Shown: positions 46,255 through 54,339 of the stretch, one piece after another
How the letters are laid out: every line of letters begins with the position of its first letter
Position numbering within the stretch: the first letter of the stretch is position 1
Source: Filomicrobium insigne
GTDB lineage: Bacteria; Pseudomonadota; Alphaproteobacteria; Rhizobiales; Hyphomicrobiaceae
Direction of reading: 5' to 3'
Assembly: GCF_900104305.1 (NCBI RefSeq)
Contig: NZ_FNJC01000001.1
Span: forward strand, 124,001-188,000
DNA length: 64,000 nt
Position numbers and translations under genes: made by a program
Notes under the pieces: model-generated
Seen by the model: only the letters and a program-made list of their open reading frames with translations
Databases searched by the model: none
Told to the model about the DNA's origin: nothing

Positions 46255-46297
46255 AGTTTAGGCAGTTTAGGTCTCCACTTGCGTGGAGGTGCCTAAA
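46255..46297 (+). promoter_or_regulatory. Direct repeat plus strong hairpin in the divergent ABC / HAD region
   Basis: AGTTTAGG occurs at 46255-46262 and 46264-46271. The second copy then enters a hairpin: TTTAGG and CTCCAC (46266-46278, one bulged base) pair with GTGGAG and CCTAAA (46283-46297, three unpaired bases), loop TTGC. No T-run follows. It lies about 115 bases before the HAD gene start and could be an operator or a 5' leader structure. Confidence 0.4.
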
Positions 46298-46410
46298 TGG
46301 CGCTAGTGCTGCGGCAAGGTGAAACAGGCCACGCCGCCGCGGGTGGCCTATTTAAAAGCTATCCGGGCAGGCGCTCACATTGCAGTTCTAGGAAAGGCCT
46401 TATTCCACTC

Positions 46411-47301
46411 ATGCAAAACGGTACCGCTGCGGAGCGTGCTCCCGTCCCCGTGCTCAATCGTGCGGAAGACCTTCTCGCGCGTTATGACGTCCTCTTCTGC
46501 GACGTGTGGGGGGTCGTGCATGACGGCTTCAAGGCTTTGCCGGCGGCCGACGACGCGCTCAACAAGTTTCGCCGCGCCGGCGGCACCGTCATTCTGGTTT
46601 CCAACGCGCCCGTCCCCAATCATCAGGTTGCGGCGATGCTCGACTCCCGGAAGCTCTCGCGGACAGCATGGGACGCGATCGTATCTTCCGGTGATATCGC
46701 GCTCACACATCTGCGGGATCAGTCTTATCGGCAGGTTTATACGATTGGCCCGCGCGATCGAGACGCAGCACTGTTCGAGGCCGTACCGGCACGATTCTCA
46801 TCGCTCGAAGATGCAGACGCCATTTTGTGCTCCGGCCTTGACGACGACATTCACGAGACGGCCGAAAGCTATTTGCCCATACTCGAGCAAGCCCGGGCAC
46901 GGGACCTACCATTTGTGTGTGCGAATCCGGATCTCGTCGTCGATGTCGGGGGGCGGCTGTACCTATGCGCAGGTGCTATTGCTGATCTTTACGCGCACCT
47001 TGGCGGAGACGTTTACTGGGCGGGCAAACCTTACATCTCTGCCTACGGCTCAGCGCATGGCCTCGCGGAAAAGCTACGTGACGCGTCGATCGCGAAGGAG
47101 CGGATTTTAGGGATCGGCGATGCCGTGCGCACGGATTTAAAAGCCGCAGAGATTTTCGGCGTCGACGCGCTGTTTATTGCTGGCGGCATACACCGCGAAG
47201 ATACCATGTCGGATGGTGTGATTTGCCGCGACCGGCTGGACGGCTTGCTTCACGGTGCGTCGCCCAACGCCGTCGCCGCGATGCCGTTTTTAGCTTGGTA
47301 A
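46411..47301 (+). CDS. HAD-superfamily IIA hydrolase (TIGR01459-like)
   Basis: NagD-related HAD phosphatase of 296 residues. Motif I reads LFCDVWGVVHDG, in which the second, general acid/base Asp of DxD is replaced by Trp, as I recall for this alphaproteobacterial subfamily. VILVSNAPVPNHQV carries motif II, KPYISAYGSAH the motif III lysine and RILGIGDAVRTDLKAAE motif IV. The start at ATG 46411 follows AGGAAAGG; an in-frame upstream ATG (46297) lies in the leader hairpin. Substrate unknown. Confidence 0.86.
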   Translation: MQNGTAAERAPVPVLNRAEDLLARYDVLFCDVWGVVHDGFKALPAADDALNKFRRAGGTVILVSNAPVPNHQVAAMLDSRKLSRTAWDAIVSSGDIALTHLRDQSYRQVYTIGPRDRDAALFEAVPARFSSLEDADAILCSGLDDDIHETAESYLPILEQARARDLPFVCANPDLVVDVGGRLYLCAGAIADLYAHLGGDVYWAGKPYISAYGSAHGLAEKLRDASIAKERILGIGDAVRTDLKAAEIFGVDALFIAGGIHREDTMSDGVICRDRLDGLLHGASPNAVAAMPFLAW

Positions 47302-47325: not shown

Positions 47326-48375
47326 CTACTCGACGGGAGGATGCTCTCGGCGAGATATTTCGGAATGGGTGACTGACCGTTCCCAATCCTTTGGCTGCTT
47401 CGTACCGTCAGAGAACGCTTCCAACACCATATCTGGCGCAGACGTATTGTGACGCGAAAAGTCATTGCGGCCGAGCCAGACGTCTGTTGCGCTCTTCGCG
47501 CCCGAGAAGGACATGACAGGTTCTTCCAGCCAGGATTTTGCCCCCTTCTCCAGAACCGCGACGTCGGCGGCGTCATTATTGAAGCGGGTCACGTACATGG
47601 AGCGTAACGCGGCAAAGGGATGATCCGTTATCGGCTTATCGAAAGTCACATCAATGACCTGTGCGTTGTTGTCCAGACGGCTGATCTTCAACTTAGCGCT
47701 GCCGCCTCCCGAGAACTTTAGATTGAACGTCAGCGTTTCCGGGTCGAACGTCACTTCATCGAGATCTACGACCGGCCGGCCGTCTTGTTTGACCGGCCCG
47801 ACGAGGAACGATGAACCATAGGCGCTCCAGCCAAGATGCTTCGGAGGCAAAGGGCGTGCTCGCCAGTATCCGTCCGGCGGATAAAGCACGAGAACCTCCT
47901 CTGAGCGCTCATTGCGGCGTACCCACACCTGGATCAGGTGAAAGCCATCATCAACCTTGTCACCAACCCGGACCGGAACCTTACGGTCCCGCCAAAAATT
48001 CGGAAACGTGTATCCGGTAATCCAAACATCAATGCCCTCATAGAGTGTCACCTTGCGTGGTGGCGGCGGCTGGCTCAACGCCTCCTCTGCAAAGTCGCAC
48101 GCAGTCCAGTCCGGCTGAAAGCTGTCGCTCTGCAGAGCGTTGATGTAGGCCGGATGCGCTGCTTCGATGCGGAACTGCTTCACGTCGGGCGAAGCAAAGG
48201 TCAGCGTGACGTTATCCTTTTCGGCGCATAGGACCGGCTCGCTCAGGTTCTCGACCTTTACCCCGAGCATGTCTAGCGAAGCGGCTTTAACCGCAACAGC
48301 TCCGGAGATCAGCGCGGTCGCCAGGAGGAACATAAACCTCACCGGCGCCTCGATCTTAATTTGCGAGCCTGGCAT
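47326..48375 (-). CDS. Hypothetical exported protein in the opgH operon
   Basis: Unrecognised protein of about 349 residues. A signal-peptide-like segment (FMFLLATALISGAVAVKAAS) follows a short basic N-terminus. The mature part is beta-rich with few cysteines and no membrane helix. Clusters such as DVWITGYTFPNFWRDRKVPVRVGDKVDDGFHLIQVWVRR suggest a carbohydrate-binding-like beta fold, but this is only impression. The start at 48375 makes it overlap the fkbM end by 20 bases, implying coupling. Position after opgH-fkbM suggests a periplasmic role in glucan synthesis. Confidence 0.65.
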   Translation of the reverse strand: MPGSQIKIEAPVRFMFLLATALISGAVAVKAASLDMLGVKVENLSEPVLCAEKDNVTLTFASPDVKQFRIEAAHPAYINALQSDSFQPDWTACDFAEEALSQPPPPRKVTLYEGIDVWITGYTFPNFWRDRKVPVRVGDKVDDGFHLIQVWVRRNERSEEVLVLYPPDGYWRARPLPPKHLGWSAYGSSFLVGPVKQDGRPVVDLDEVTFDPETLTFNLKFSGGGSAKLKISRLDNNAQVIDVTFDKPITDHPFAALRSMYVTRFNNDAADVAVLEKGAKSWLEEPVMSFSGAKSATDVWLGRNDFSRHNTSAPDMVLEAFSDGTKQPKDWERSVTHSEISRREHPPVE

Positions 48376-49105
48376 AGATGTCTCCGGAATTAACCTCGTG
48401 GGGCAATGCACGCACGTGAGCAGCCATGGTTCGCGCATCCAGCTCACGGCCCTCGCCAAACGTCAGTTGCTGCGTCTCACCTAGGGCTATGTCGTAGCGG
48501 TAAGGTCCAAGGGCCGCGAGCCGTTCCAAGCCGCGGCAAGCAACGTCACGATCGATGGTCGTGAATTCAAACGAAAGCGCGGGCACAGGCTCCGACAGTC
48601 CCGCCAGAACACGGTCCTCAAAACCTTCGACGTCAATCTTTATGAAGGCTGGGTGTCCATACCGGTCGATCAGGTGATCAAGCGTCACTGCACGGACCTC
48701 AATGACCTGATCCCATGTCTGTCCCTCCCAGCCTGCTGCTCCCTCGGCCTGGGCGAGAAAATCACCTGAGGCGGTTGAAACCGTCGGGTTCGCCGTATTG
48801 ACGTGCATGCGAACGGTTCCGTCATGGTCGGCGGCTGCGGCGGAGACAATGGTTACGTCCGGATCGCGGGCATAGATCAACCGCAGGGCGCGACCGGGGA
48901 GGGGCTGGGGTTCCAGCGCGACGACACGAGCTCCAAGGCTCCGAAAGACGCCTGTGCGGTCCCCAACATGCGCACCCACATCAAAGGCCAAGTCTCCTTC
49001 AGAGATGAACGTGGCATAGAGCTCCCGCATCGCTCGCTGGCGCTTCTGGTCCCCGTAATAAACACGCAAGGATCGGGACAAGCCATGCAGAGCGCTGGAA
49101 ACCAT
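48356..49105 (-). CDS. FkbM-family SAM-dependent methyltransferase
   Basis: O-methyltransferase of the FkbM family, 249 residues. Motif I is LAFDVGAHVGDRTGVFRSLGARVVALEP. The conserved core HPAFIKIDVEGFEDRVLAGL and SFEFTTID match the family. Members often methylate sugar hydroxyls in glycans or polyketides. It lies 17 bases downstream of opgH on the same strand, so the product may methylate the glucan or a related glycan; this is inference. Confidence 0.87.
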   Translation of the reverse strand: MVSSALHGLSRSLRVYYGDQKRQRAMRELYATFISEGDLAFDVGAHVGDRTGVFRSLGARVVALEPQPLPGRALRLIYARDPDVTIVSAAAADHDGTVRMHVNTANPTVSTASGDFLAQAEGAAGWEGQTWDQVIEVRAVTLDHLIDRYGHPAFIKIDVEGFEDRVLAGLSEPVPALSFEFTTIDRDVACRGLERLAALGPYRYDIALGETQQLTFGEGRELDARTMAAHVRALPHEVNSGDIYARLAN

Positions 49106-49122
49106 CGACGGTGTTTGCCTTC

Positions 49123-50982
49123 CTAGACGGTCTCAAGTTCGCGACGAGGAGAAGCGCTTTTTCCCAACGGGAACACACTTTCCTGCTGTACCGTTGCGAT
49201 CTCGGGTGGTGTGACGAGGTCTTCAGGAATAGCACACAGCCGATTGCGCTGCAGCCAAGCGCCCAATCGCGGCGACGCCGTAAACACAGCAAACGGTATC
49301 GCCAAGAGATAACCGGCCGTCAGTGGTAAACTCCACATGAGCGTCTCAGGTGAGATGACCGCCAGAGCGCCGCACACAAGAAGGCCGAATATCGTTTGCG
49401 GCCACAAATCAAGGGCGGCTGTTGTCCATGAAAGCCCATATGCATCACGCGACTGCCCGCCCCACACCACTGAACGGCCCAATAGGAGGCCAAACATGAA
49501 GACGCTGGTGCGGATCGCGGAAACTGCGCCCTGCAGAAACGAGAAGACGAGTTCCGTGGTCGCGCTGAAGGTGAAGCGAAGCGGCCCGCCGAAACTCGCG
49601 ACTCCGCCCTTGGTCAGCATGGCATCGACAAGCCCTGCGAGCTTTGGCGTCAAATGCATAAGCATAAATGCCAGATAGAGCGTAATCGCGAGGCCTGCGG
49701 GATAATCCGGGATCGTGCGCGCCTCTAACGCTAATGCCGGCAGCAGCGCGATGATGACGGTCAATGCCGGTACACCAAGGAACATCAGGACAGCCCACAG
49801 AAGCTGAAAGCGGCTTAGGGGCAAGAGGCCGGGAAGGTTCAGCAGCTTGATGTACTGCAAATTGCCCTGGCACCAGCGCACTTCGCGCTTGGCGAAGTCG
49901 AGCATCGTGGGCGGATTTTCTTCCCACGATCCGATCTCGAAAGGCAGCACCCGAACTTCATAACCTGCCCGTCTCATCAAGGTCGCTTCGACCTGATCGT
50001 GTGACAGGACATGGCCACCGAGGGGAGGCTTACCTGGAAGCACCGGTAGCTCGCAATCGTTGTAGAAGGGATGAACGCGTACCATCGCGTTGTGCCCCCA
50101 GAAGGGACCGCAATCGGCGACCCACCAGGCTTGGCCCATGGTGTAGGAACGCATCCCATGGCGCATACCGAACTGGAAGATGCGCGCAAAGGCGCTCGAT
50201 GACGGCATGCCGACCACCAGGCTCTGCAGAATGCCTAGTCGCGGATGCGCCTGCATCATACGAGCCATTTTAACGATGGCGTCGCCGGACATCAGGCTAT
50301 CAGCATCAAGCGGAAGCATCAGCTCGAACTGGTCGCCCCAGCGCGCACAGAAATCTCGAACGTTTCCGGCCTTGAAGCCAACATTATCTGCGCGACGGCG
50401 ATAGACGATGCGCTCGCCGTCGGGGTCGGAGGCCTGCCATTCGGCTGCAAGTTGCTCCTCAAGCTCAGCCACTTCGGTGACGTTGGTGTCGCTCAAGAGG
50501 AAATAGCTGAACGTGGCGCCTTCACCGGTCGCATCGAGACTGCGCTTGATCGTCTGCAGCCGCGCAACGGCGCGTTTGGGGTCTTCGTTGCGCAACGTCA
50601 TGAACACCGCCGTCTTGACGTAGAGCGGGGTCAGATCATCCGCAGCGCGCGCAAAAGGGGCGACGGCGGCCATGGGAGCCTTGTGACCGTGCAGCAGCCA
50701 CAAACCGATAACCGCATTCCAGAAGCCGAGTATGGCCCAAGGCGTACCGATCATCAGGCACAGGAATACGACCAGATCGACCGTGGTCCAACCTCCCGCA
50801 CTCAGCAAGAATGCGGCCGCCGCCATCATTACGGCGTATGTCACTACGTTCAGTGCCGCTACGATTGTTCTGCGGCGCTGAAGTTCAGGCATGGACTGGA
50901 GGCCACTGGGTACGCTAAGCGTCGGCTTTCCCGCGCTAAATCGCGGCTCGTTCGCCTGGTCTAACGTCTCGCTCATGATCAC
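49123..50982 (-). CDS. opgH: Glucan biosynthesis glucosyltransferase H
   Basis: Inner membrane GT2 enzyme that polymerises the beta-1,2 glucan backbone of osmoregulated periplasmic glucans from UDP-glucose. About seven membrane segments flank the catalytic domain. Catalytic landmarks: FLLSDT near the nucleotide site, LPLDADSLMSGDA (DxD), the acidic GHVLSHDQVEATLMRRAGYEV, and KREVRWCQGNLQYIKL, corresponding to the Q/RxxRW motif. At 619 residues it lacks the long N-terminal region of E. coli OpgH (about 850), as in other alphaproteobacteria. opgG, its usual partner, is not adjacent. Starts at 50982 and 50976 are both possible. Confidence 0.93.
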   Translation of the reverse strand: MIMSETLDQANEPRFSAGKPTLSVPSGLQSMPELQRRRTIVAALNVVTYAVMMAAAAFLLSAGGWTTVDLVVFLCLMIGTPWAILGFWNAVIGLWLLHGHKAPMAAVAPFARAADDLTPLYVKTAVFMTLRNEDPKRAVARLQTIKRSLDATGEGATFSYFLLSDTNVTEVAELEEQLAAEWQASDPDGERIVYRRRADNVGFKAGNVRDFCARWGDQFELMLPLDADSLMSGDAIVKMARMMQAHPRLGILQSLVVGMPSSSAFARIFQFGMRHGMRSYTMGQAWWVADCGPFWGHNAMVRVHPFYNDCELPVLPGKPPLGGHVLSHDQVEATLMRRAGYEVRVLPFEIGSWEENPPTMLDFAKREVRWCQGNLQYIKLLNLPGLLPLSRFQLLWAVLMFLGVPALTVIIALLPALALEARTIPDYPAGLAITLYLAFMLMHLTPKLAGLVDAMLTKGGVASFGGPLRFTFSATTELVFSFLQGAVSAIRTSVFMFGLLLGRSVVWGGQSRDAYGLSWTTAALDLWPQTIFGLLVCGALAVISPETLMWSLPLTAGYLLAIPFAVFTASPRLGAWLQRNRLCAIPEDLVTPPEIATVQQESVFPLGKSASPRRELETV

Positions 50983-51036: not shown

Positions 51037-52035
51037 ATGACGGTACGCAAATCGACTGGCAAGCGACACATTGGCCGCGCCGTTTGGTTTACCAATCCTG
51101 GCGTCGCAGAGATCCGTGTTGAAACTTTGAAAGCTCCGGCTCCGAATGAAGCGGTGGTGCGCGCGTTGTACAGCGGAATAAGCCGTGGCACGGAACGCCT
51201 CGTTCTGAATGGAGCCGTCCCTGAAAGCGAGTGGCCCCGAATGCGGGCTCCTTTTCAGTCGGGCGATTTTCCTTTCCCAGTTAAATACGGCTATTGCGCG
51301 ACCGGGATCGTCGAGGACGGCCCGGAAGACCTCGTAGGTAAAACGGTTTTTTGCCTTCATCCGCACCAGGACATCTTTGTCGCACCCATCGCCGCATTGG
51401 CGGTGGTCCCGGAAGATGTGCCGGCCAAGCGGGCGACGCTGGCGGCCAATATGGAAACGGCACTGAACGCCCATTGGGATGCGGCAACCGGGCCGGGGGA
51501 TCGTATCGTGGTCGTGGGTGCGGGGGTTGTCGGACTGCTGGTCGCACGGATCGCGGCGCAATTGCCGCATGCTGAGGTTACCGTGATCGACATTGATCCG
51601 AGCCGGCGCGCGCTCGTTCAGGACTTTGGTGGCGATTTCGCGTTGCCTGATCAGGCAACGCAGGACGCCGACGTCGTATTTCACACAAGCGCGAGTTCGG
51701 AAGGACTGACGACTGCGATCAATTGCGCCGGGTTTGAAGCGCGTGTGATTGAATTGTCATGGTACGGTGCGAGTCAGCAACAGGTCTCGCTGGGCGGGGC
51801 GTTTCATAGCCGCCGTTTAACGTTGCAATCGTCGCAAGTCGGCCAAGTCTCCGCCTCTCGGCGCGCGCGCTGGTCTTATAGCCGCCGTCTCGCAACGGCC
51901 TTGAAACTTTTACGCGATCCCGTGCTTGATCAACTTGTTTACGATGAGATCTCCTTTCGCGACGCCGCCGACCTGATCCCTGCCATTCTCAATGGACCGG
52001 CGAGTAAACTCGCGCCTGTCCTCAATTATGCGTGA
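51037..52035 (+). CDS. BchC-like zinc-free MDR oxidoreductase
   Basis: Medium-chain dehydrogenase/reductase of 332 residues. The zinc-site cysteine region of alcohol dehydrogenases is replaced by YSGISRGTERLVLNGAVPESEW, resembling the BchC group. PFPVKYGYCATGIVEDG forms the substrate-side loop. The Rossmann motif is VVVGAGVVGLLVARIAA, followed by VIDIDPSRR, whose Asp suggests NAD rather than NADP. It diverges from opgH with 54 bases between starts, and opens a four-gene run with a PTPS-like gene 30 bases downstream. Substrate unknown. Confidence 0.88.
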   Translation: MTVRKSTGKRHIGRAVWFTNPGVAEIRVETLKAPAPNEAVVRALYSGISRGTERLVLNGAVPESEWPRMRAPFQSGDFPFPVKYGYCATGIVEDGPEDLVGKTVFCLHPHQDIFVAPIAALAVVPEDVPAKRATLAANMETALNAHWDAATGPGDRIVVVGAGVVGLLVARIAAQLPHAEVTVIDIDPSRRALVQDFGGDFALPDQATQDADVVFHTSASSEGLTTAINCAGFEARVIELSWYGASQQQVSLGGAFHSRRLTLQSSQVGQVSASRRARWSYSRRLATALKLLRDPVLDQLVYDEISFRDAADLIPAILNGPASKLAPVLNYA

Positions 52036-52065: not shown

Positions 52066-52470
52066 ATGTTTTCCGTTGAAGTGCGCGACCGCATCATGAT
52101 CGCTCACAGCCTTCCCGACCCGTTCTTCGGTCCAGCGCAAAAAATGCACGGCGCGACATTCGTTGTCGATGTCGCCTTCTTCCGCGCTGAGCTGACGCGG
52201 CACAACGTCGTTGTCGACATTGGCGCGGCGCTGCAAGTTTTGAACGACACGCTGAAACCACTTGCCTATCAGAACCTCGACGAATTGACGCAATTTACCG
52301 GCAAGCTCACGACGACGGAGTTCCTGGCGAAGCACATTTTCGACGAGATCGCGCGGGCTGCGCGCAGCGGCGGTCTCGGCGAAGGGTCCAGCGGCCTCGC
52401 CAAGATCCGGGTAACGTTGAGTGAAACGGACCTTGCGCGGGCATCCTATGAGGGGCCTATCGGTGACTGA
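52066..52470 (+). CDS. Divergent 6-pyruvoyl-tetrahydropterin synthase / QueD homologue
   Basis: T-fold protein of 134 residues in the PTPS/QueD superfamily, whose members convert dihydroneopterin triphosphate to 6-pyruvoyl- or 6-carboxy-pterins. One zinc histidine (His14, IMIAHSL) and one more (His28, KMHGATF) align, but the usual HGH reads HGA and the catalytic cysteine before it is missing. The Asp-His pair seen as LDH in QueD is also absent (LAYQNLDEL). Glu120 in SETD could be the pterin-anchoring Glu. Chemistry may therefore differ. It overlaps the next gene by 8 bases. Confidence 0.8.
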   Translation: MFSVEVRDRIMIAHSLPDPFFGPAQKMHGATFVVDVAFFRAELTRHNVVVDIGAALQVLNDTLKPLAYQNLDELTQFTGKLTTTEFLAKHIFDEIARAARSGGLGEGSSGLAKIRVTLSETDLARASYEGPIGD

Positions 52471-53509
52471 AACCTGCTTTGCCATTCCCGGCGATATCGA
52501 CAGTCCGACGGGCGGCTATGGCTACGATCGGCGGCTCCTGACAATGCTGCCGTCGTTCGGTGTCAATGTGCGTCACCTGGAACTTCCAGGGACATATCCA
52601 GCGCCGTCCCAGGGTGATCTCGCGGCGACTGTCGATACTCTCAACTCGGCACCTCCGAATTCGACGCTTCTCATCGACGGCTTGGCATATGGAGCCATGC
52701 CGTTTTCGGTGATCGAAAAGATCAACCGGCGCATCATTGCTCTCGTCCATCACCCTTTGGCGCTCGAAACGGGTCTGTCGGAACGCCGCCGCGCGGAATT
52801 GGAAGCGAGCGAGCGCGCGGCTCTCGCCTTGGCCGACAAAGTCGTCGTCACGAGTCCGGCGACACAACGCATTCTGGAAGCCGATTATGGGGTGGCGAAG
52901 GACCGCGTGACGGTCGCCTTACCCGGCACGGATCCAGCTCTGCGGGCGACCGGCACCGGAACACCACTGCAATTGCTCTGCGTCGGGACCGTGACGCCGC
53001 GAAAGGCGTACGATGTTTTGATCGAGGCCCTGCTGCCGCTGAAGCATCTCGATTGGCGGGTGAACATCGCGGGTGCGTTGGACCGTGACCGCGAGACGGT
53101 GGCGGCGCTCAACGCGCAGATTGCCGCCGCCAAGCTGGAAGATCGCGTGAGCCTGCCCGGCGTCGTCGTTCCTGCGACCCTCGACCGCTTTTATGAGAGC
53201 ACCGACCTTTTCGTTATGCCGTCTCGTTTCGAGGGATATGGCATGGCGCTCGCGGAAGCGATGGCGCGCGGGTTGCCGATCATTTGCTCGACGGGTGGCG
53301 CAGCCGCCGAAACGGTTCCCGATGGCGCAGCCCTGAAAGTGCCGCCGGGAGACGTCGCTGCACTGACGAAGGCGCTGGAGTCGGCGCTTACCGACAAACG
53401 GCTGAGGGTGCGGCTCGCCGATGCGTCGTGGGAGCATGGGCGTTCGCTGCCGACTTGGAACGAAACTGCGAGACGCGTCGCTGCGGCGATCCTGGATATT
53501 CCGACATGA
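52463..53509 (+). CDS. GT4-family glycosyltransferase
   Basis: GT-B retaining glycosyltransferase of 348 residues from GTG 52463, which has GAGGGG 9 bases upstream; an ATG at 52448 is an alternative. The N-terminus AIPGDIDSPTGGYGYDRRLL is a typical acceptor-domain opening. The donor domain has LQLLCVGTVTPRKAYDVLIEAL and the EX7E motif at Glu257 and Glu265 (SRFEGYGMALAEAMARG). No membrane segment. It overlaps both neighbours by a few bases (PTPS and methyltransferase), so all three are translationally coupled. Acceptor unknown; a pterin-like product of the neighbour is a candidate. Confidence 0.88.
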   Translation: MTETCFAIPGDIDSPTGGYGYDRRLLTMLPSFGVNVRHLELPGTYPAPSQGDLAATVDTLNSAPPNSTLLIDGLAYGAMPFSVIEKINRRIIALVHHPLALETGLSERRRAELEASERAALALADKVVVTSPATQRILEADYGVAKDRVTVALPGTDPALRATGTGTPLQLLCVGTVTPRKAYDVLIEALLPLKHLDWRVNIAGALDRDRETVAALNAQIAAAKLEDRVSLPGVVVPATLDRFYESTDLFVMPSRFEGYGMALAEAMARGLPIICSTGGAAAETVPDGAALKVPPGDVAALTKALESALTDKRLRVRLADASWEHGRSLPTWNETARRVAAAILDIPT

Positions 53510-54339
53510 GTGGTTTTTCGGCCGAGTGGCTCGGGCTGCGAGAGCCTGCCGATCACCGTGCGCGCAATCGGGAAATCGCCAGCACGCTTTCGGCGCGGCT
53601 TGCCCAGCGCGAAGCTGTCTCGATCGTCGATATCGGCTGCGGGGCGGCCTCCAATCTCAAGGCCACCGCCCTACTTCTGCCAGACCGGCAGACATGGCGG
53701 CTTGTCGATTATGACGCCAATCTCCTGACGGCCGCACGCGAGCGGCTCATGGACTGGGCCGATGCGTCAAAGTCCGAGGACGCGCAGCTCGTCTTGGAAA
53801 AGGACGGCAAACACATCGACGTCACGTTCCATCAGTTCGACCTCAATGCCGATCTTGAAGGCGCGCTCGGGGAACATCCCGATCTGGTGACCTCAGCCGC
53901 ATTTTTCGATCTGACGTCGGTCGCCTTCATGCAGCGCTTTGCTGCGGCGGTCGTCGCGCGCAAGGCAGCGTTTTATACTGTTCTGACTTATAACGGCCGG
54001 CAGCGCTGGAGCCCGCACCATCCGAGCGACAACGCGATTGTTGCGGCGTTCCACCGGCATCAGATGCGGGACAAGGGTTTTGGGTCGGCTGCCGGTCCGA
54101 CCTCCGCGCTTGAACTCGGCGAACAATTCCGGCTGCACGGCTATAGCGTTCTGGAGGGCGATAGCCCCTGGGACCTCGGGCCCTCGGACGCGGCGTTGAT
54201 TGCTGAACTTCAGGCGGGCCACGCCGCCGCTGTGGCCGAAACCGGGGCCGTGGATGCGAAAACGCTGGAGCGTTGGGTGGGACTGAAACGCACCGGCGCC
54301 ATCATCGGCCATACCGATACGCTTGCGTTGCCGGGGTAG
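53506..54339 (+). CDS. SAM-dependent methyltransferase
   Basis: Class I methyltransferase of 277 residues. Motif I is SIVDIGCGAASNLKATAL, with the acidic loop WRLVDYDANLL after it. Later motifs include DLVTSAAFFDLTSVAFMQRFA. The start ATG at 53506 overlaps the glycosyltransferase stop by 4 bases. It is the last gene of the four-gene run. The target is unknown; the context suggests O- or N-methylation of the same small product. Confidence 0.86.
   Translation: MSGFSAEWLGLREPADHRARNREIASTLSARLAQREAVSIVDIGCGAASNLKATALLLPDRQTWRLVDYDANLLTAARERLMDWADASKSEDAQLVLEKDGKHIDVTFHQFDLNADLEGALGEHPDLVTSAAFFDLTSVAFMQRFAAAVVARKAAFYTVLTYNGRQRWSPHHPSDNAIVAAFHRHQMRDKGFGSAAGPTSALELGEQFRLHGYSVLEGDSPWDLGPSDAALIAELQAGHAAAVAETGAVDAKTLERWVGLKRTGAIIGHTDTLALPG

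Follow-up and report, generated by a model that had tools for sequence, protein, structure and literature searches.

An OpgH-type synthase lineage in Filomicrobium insigne encoded with an FkbM methyltransferase and an exported protein of OpgG-like predicted fold

With what does an OpgH-type glucan synthase operate at a locus where opgG does not adjoin its gene? The question is raised by a 64,000-nucleotide stretch of the Filomicrobium insigne genome, referred to here as the window. On its minus strand, genes for an OpgH-type GT2 glucosyltransferase, an FkbM-family methyltransferase and an exported beta-rich protein, which we call EXP, follow one another in that order. We favor, with moderate confidence, the reading that these genes form an additional glucan-synthase cassette, distinct from the normal opgC/opgG/opgH locus and equipped with a shortened OpgG-like exported partner.

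Gene order, conservation and OpgH lineage

The opgH-type gene (49123..50976, minus strand) lies in an open reading frame (ORF) of 49123-50982 that opens with GTG at 50982, the ATG at 50976 being the likelier start. It is followed after 17 bases by fkbM (48356..49105, minus strand), whose product matched TIGR01444 with 81 bits (cut-off 37.7) and PF05050 with 56.3 bits (cut-off 22.7). The EXP gene (47326..48375, minus strand) shares 20 bases with the end of fkbM; its ORF extends over 47326-48459, the likely start being an ATG at 48375 with GGAG in front of it. As read from the sequence, EXP opens with a signal-peptide-like stretch, in which residues 1-31 (48283..48375, minus strand) form a putative signal peptide cleaved after VKA. 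A preliminary description of this DNA had reported three such genes on one strand, which the ORFs, the family matches and a beta-strand model of EXP bear out, and the 17-base gap and overlapping EXP start that it gave were both correct.

A scan of named genome contigs for EXP relatives returned 492 loci; the analysis used the 80 best matches, so that the counts favor close relatives. Hyphomicrobium, Filomicrobium, Bosea, Microvirga and other genera were represented among these 80. All three genes occurred together in 58 of the 80 loci, and in each of these (58/58) they shared a strand and kept their order. The remaining loci comprised six with FkbM and EXP, one with OpgH and EXP, and 15 with EXP alone. 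With 58/80 loci carrying the three genes in order, we rejected the idea that the triple arose by chance at this one locus. Intervening genes in large-gap loci were inspected by eye and included RelE/ParE- and PIN-like toxin-antitoxin genes; these were not counted as partners.

Co-occurrence was also examined in a survey of the order, in which 297 genomes were sampled and for which the Fisher values ignore kinship and carry no correction for phylogeny. The EXP family was present in 52 of the 297 genomes, and cassette-type OpgH in 46 of those 52 (Fisher 4.8e-27). EXP and FkbM co-occurred in 29 genomes (Fisher 1.2e-13). In a class survey of 240 genomes, five had EXP, and two of these five came from the same order. 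MdoG was detected in 162 of the 297 order genomes. Cassette-type OpgH with FkbM within 6 kb was held by 29 EXP genomes, and five of these 29 were without any MdoG match; the cassette therefore need not depend on OpgG. An OpgH that functions without opgG is described for another alphaproteobacterium, Caulobacter (PMC11389396).

The window synthase falls into an OpgH lineage of its own, distinct from the opgG-linked OpgHs. It exceeds the NF003963 cut-off (931 versus 884 bits); Caulobacter OpgH, included as a control, matched this model but below cut-off. In an alignment with E. coli OpgH, the GT2 motifs DxD, HD and RW were kept in the window protein as DAD, HDQ and RW. A maximum-likelihood tree of 56 OpgH proteins separated 14 opgG-linked rows, including E. 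coli, from 42 rows of the cassette lineage, a split supported 100/100. The residue after HD was Q in 41/42 cassette-lineage OpgHs and in 0/14 canonical rows. Judging by its family and conserved motifs, the enzyme most probably synthesizes a glucose chain and exports it.

The assembly (10 contigs, 3.85 Mb) contains three OpgH-type genes: the window copy, a copy at C10:394982 with 49% identity and a third at C8:137185 with 34% identity. The C8 protein scored 350 bits on NF003963 and had NF003962 as its best model. At this locus opgG stands directly before opgH (C8:135596-138864), and next to the pair are genes for an OpgC_C-domain protein and a GDSL-type hydrolase. The C10 gene (C10:394982-396649) falls within the cassette OpgH lineage, with the cassette partners not nearby; by eye, formylmethanofuran dehydrogenase subunit look-alikes were seen near it.

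A PF04349 (MdoG) search of the genome found two genes (E 2.6e-181 and 2.2e-169): the opgG on C8 and another at C10:1264262, the latter with a twin-arginine-like start and, as judged from its sequence, a resemblance to OpgD. An organism without opgG was rejected on these two MdoG genes. The preliminary description had held opgG to be missing and had proposed this genome search as a check. Its claim stands for the window locus, where opgG does not adjoin opgH, and fails for the organism, which has opgG with normal partners on C8 and an OpgD-like gene on C10. Because the genome has a normal osmoregulated periplasmic glucan locus, the absence of opgG is a property of the window locus only.

Predicted fold of the exported protein

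EXP matches no Pfam or NCBIfam family, and the same was true of the 80 alignment members, bar scattered chance-level matches. PF04349 did not match the window EXP and was not listed for any of the 80 members, with E values of up to 1 admitted. Mature EXP (about 318 residues) was modeled with AlphaFold from 80 sequences; the model had a mean pLDDT of 90.5 and consisted nearly entirely of beta strands. Its best match in the PDB was E. coli OpgD (8ip1; Z 13.2, 215 residues, root-mean-square deviation 3.7, 16% identity), and the runner-up was LacZ at Z 6.0. A second model, from the relative at L134 (53% identical to the window EXP; pLDDT 88.7), matched OpgG 1txk at Z 14.9, OpgD 8iox at Z 14.2 and OpgD 8ip1 at Z 14.1, followed by an unrelated fold at Z 6.1. 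The structural alignment list is a re-alignment of the top 1000 Foldseek chains, and absences from it carry no meaning. In both models, the comparison with OpgG suggested in the preliminary description thus placed OpgG/OpgD far ahead of the next fold. The view that EXP is a shortened OpgG-like beta-sandwich gains support from this predicted fold and from a shared operon logic.

The match is confined to the front portion of OpgG/OpgD. The EXP alignment stops at residue 341 of OpgG and 368-369 of OpgD, and the predicted fold corresponds to OpgD residues about 70-369. Only 26 EXP residues lie beyond the aligned part, and the C-terminal OpgG/OpgD part, including the D388 region, is not present. 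D388 is the general acid of the GH186/MdoG enzyme OpgD (PMC10514313), and the EXP alignment ends before it. Since EXP is without this part, it probably serves as a partner that binds or handles the glucan, and not as an enzyme of the GH186 mechanism. Opposite the OpgD base D300, an Ala (mature EXP residue 239) may stand, a placement made by eye without residue-level structural alignment.

The cassette resembles E. coli opgGH (OpgG PDB 1txk) in encoding an OpgH-type GT2 synthase together with an exported beta-rich protein of OpgG fold, the fold being predicted here. In E. coli, however, OpgG is encoded first in the operon and is full length, whereas EXP comes last in the cassette and is without the C-terminal part. 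The cassette also has the FkbM gene between opgH and EXP, and EXP has neither an MdoG hidden Markov model match nor a detectable sequence relationship to E. coli OpgG. In the mechanism that we propose for the cassette, the OpgH-type membrane GT2 enzyme would make a glucose chain and push it outward. EXP would meet the emerging chain in the periplasm and bind or shape it, as OpgG and OpgD bind beta-1,2-glucan.

Several results weigh against this interpretation. Foldseek alone, with the EXP model against the PDB, gave no significant match, and no OpgG or OpgD was among the 50 matches listed. Profile-profile comparison of EXP with MdoG detected no sequence relationship, and the region-limited EXP-MdoG score of 16.4 fell within shuffled controls (mean 15.4, maximum 26.1). 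In the 15 EXP-alone loci of the best 80, OpgH and FkbM were both missing from the vicinity; some of these loci lie at contig ends. EXP was absent in 30 of the 76 order-sample genomes with cassette-type OpgH, and was present without cassette-type OpgH in 6 of 52. Each is thus found without the other, and the partnership is therefore not obligate.

Taking the fold match together with the null profile, shuffled-column and Foldseek results, we place the relationship of EXP to OpgG at the level of predicted fold and operon logic, not of sequence. The earlier suggestion that EXP takes the place of OpgG therefore stands in part: the fold match in two models and the position after an opgH-type gene in 58/80 loci speak for it, and the missing sequence relationship speaks against it. 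By eye, YWRA, YGSS and RSM in EXP can be paired with YFRA, YGLS and TSM in OpgG/OpgD, a pairing that is suggestive only and without statistical support. PDB sequence searches with EXP, OpgH and FkbM returned nothing useful, and a PHROGs search was likewise uninformative. At locus L098:6001-11007, a distance of about 2.8 kb separates EXP from an OpgD-like gene encoded on the other strand.

On the cassette reading, a widespread family that has had no name (492 loci in one scan) gains a likely role. A shortened OpgG-like protein with its own OpgH lineage, sometimes without MdoG, would also provide a minimal system for testing the role of the OpgG fold in glucan synthesis.

FkbM and the methyl acceptor

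Among the 36 genomes holding both genes, fkbM was within 6 kb of cassette-type OpgH in 32, and FkbM was directly downstream of OpgH in 58/80 EXP loci. This proximity is consistent with FkbM O-methylating the glucan made by the cassette OpgH, which would yield a methylated periplasmic glucan; we hold this only tentatively and consider it somewhat doubtful. Forty of the 76 genomes with cassette-type OpgH are without a close FkbM, and six genomes without this OpgH have an FkbM relative no more than 8 kb away from a PTPS-like gene of the kind found upstream of the cassette. FkbM enzymes are cytoplasmic, and their acceptors vary across the family. A cytoplasmic enzyme would need to act on the glucan before export. 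Because of the variable acceptors and the FkbM genes near PTPS in those six genomes, the FkbM substrate may be another product of the neighborhood. In the proposed cassette, FkbM could accordingly be pictured in any of three positions, methylating a precursor, the growing chain end before export, or the product of the divergent genes described below.

No paper joining FkbM and OpgH was found in a literature search, and a description elsewhere in print is possible. One paper, on Ochrobactrum lipopolysaccharide, contains both FkbM and periplasmic glucan. At L174:4471-5382, OpgH and FkbM are separated by a PEP-mutase-family gene encoded on the other strand.

The divergent neighborhood and alternative products

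Plus-strand genes run divergently from opgH. The first encodes a zinc-type dehydrogenase (ADH; 51037..52035) with a PF00107 score just below cut-off. It is followed by a gene for a PTPS-like protein (52066..52470; PF01242 71.3 bits), a close relative of SCO6650 (PDB 3d7j; 1.5e-36). The structure record of SCO6650 says uncharacterized, and no paper naming it was found in our literature search. Next come a GT4 glycosyltransferase gene (52421..53509; PF00534 101.3 bits) and a class I methyltransferase gene (53506..54339; ORF from 53284, likely start 53506), the latter with a weak PF08242 match and an ortholog in L194.

Of the 57 OpgH loci whose upstream sequence exceeds 1.2 kb, 54 have the divergent ADH next to OpgH; among 21 loci without OpgH, ADH was present in one and PTPS in none. 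Twenty further regions, many with an OpgH only 43-54% identical, contained ADH in 18 and both PTPS and GT4 in 16. In the order sample, 71 of the 76 genomes with cassette-type OpgH had the PTPS-like gene, within 6 kb in 69 of the 71. The cassette OpgH lineage is tightly linked to the PTPS-like gene, a linkage that is new here and that connects a glucan synthase with a conserved gene cluster. The PTPS-like protein reads HGA at the position where the usual PTPS family motif is HGH.

This linkage raises the alternative that the OpgH-type enzyme serves the product of the ADH-PTPS-GT4-methyltransferase genes and not an envelope glucan. It would add sugars to a pterin- or pyrimidine-like molecule, or export it, with FkbM and EXP modifying or handling the product. 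Besides the 69/71 genomes, rearranged loci are in keeping with this: L191 has OpgH, EXP, ADH, PTPS and GT4 all on one strand, and L174 has OpgH, FkbM, PTPS and GT4 on one strand with FkbM between OpgH and PTPS, so that both retain the OpgH-PTPS-GT4 link. At L200:6854-9378, RibA-like, RibD-like (RibD_C-domain) and cytochrome b561 genes adjoin the PTPS/GT4/methyltransferase cluster, which suggests a pterin- or flavin-like pathway. However, 16 PTPS genomes are without cassette-type OpgH, the GT2 motifs and the OpgG-like partner favor a glucan chain, and shared regulation could equally explain the divergent adjacency. We regard this alternative as unlikely.

That the cassette is a redundant paralog, making the same glucan as the C8 opgGH under other conditions by ordinary chemistry, would fit the three OpgH-type genes in the genome, but the separate lineage with its own partners and the genomes that keep the cassette without any MdoG gene make this decidedly improbable. 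It is very improbable that the OpgH lineage and its shortened OpgG-like partner form an undescribed Hyphomicrobiales envelope pathway, building a glycan that carries a methylated pterin- or pyrimidine-like group from the divergent genes or has such a group as its starting point.

At the other end of the cassette, a TIGR01459-family HAD phosphatase gene (46297-47301) converges on EXP. A relative of this phosphatase was found downstream in 21 of the 56 triples with at least 1.5 kb of downstream sequence.

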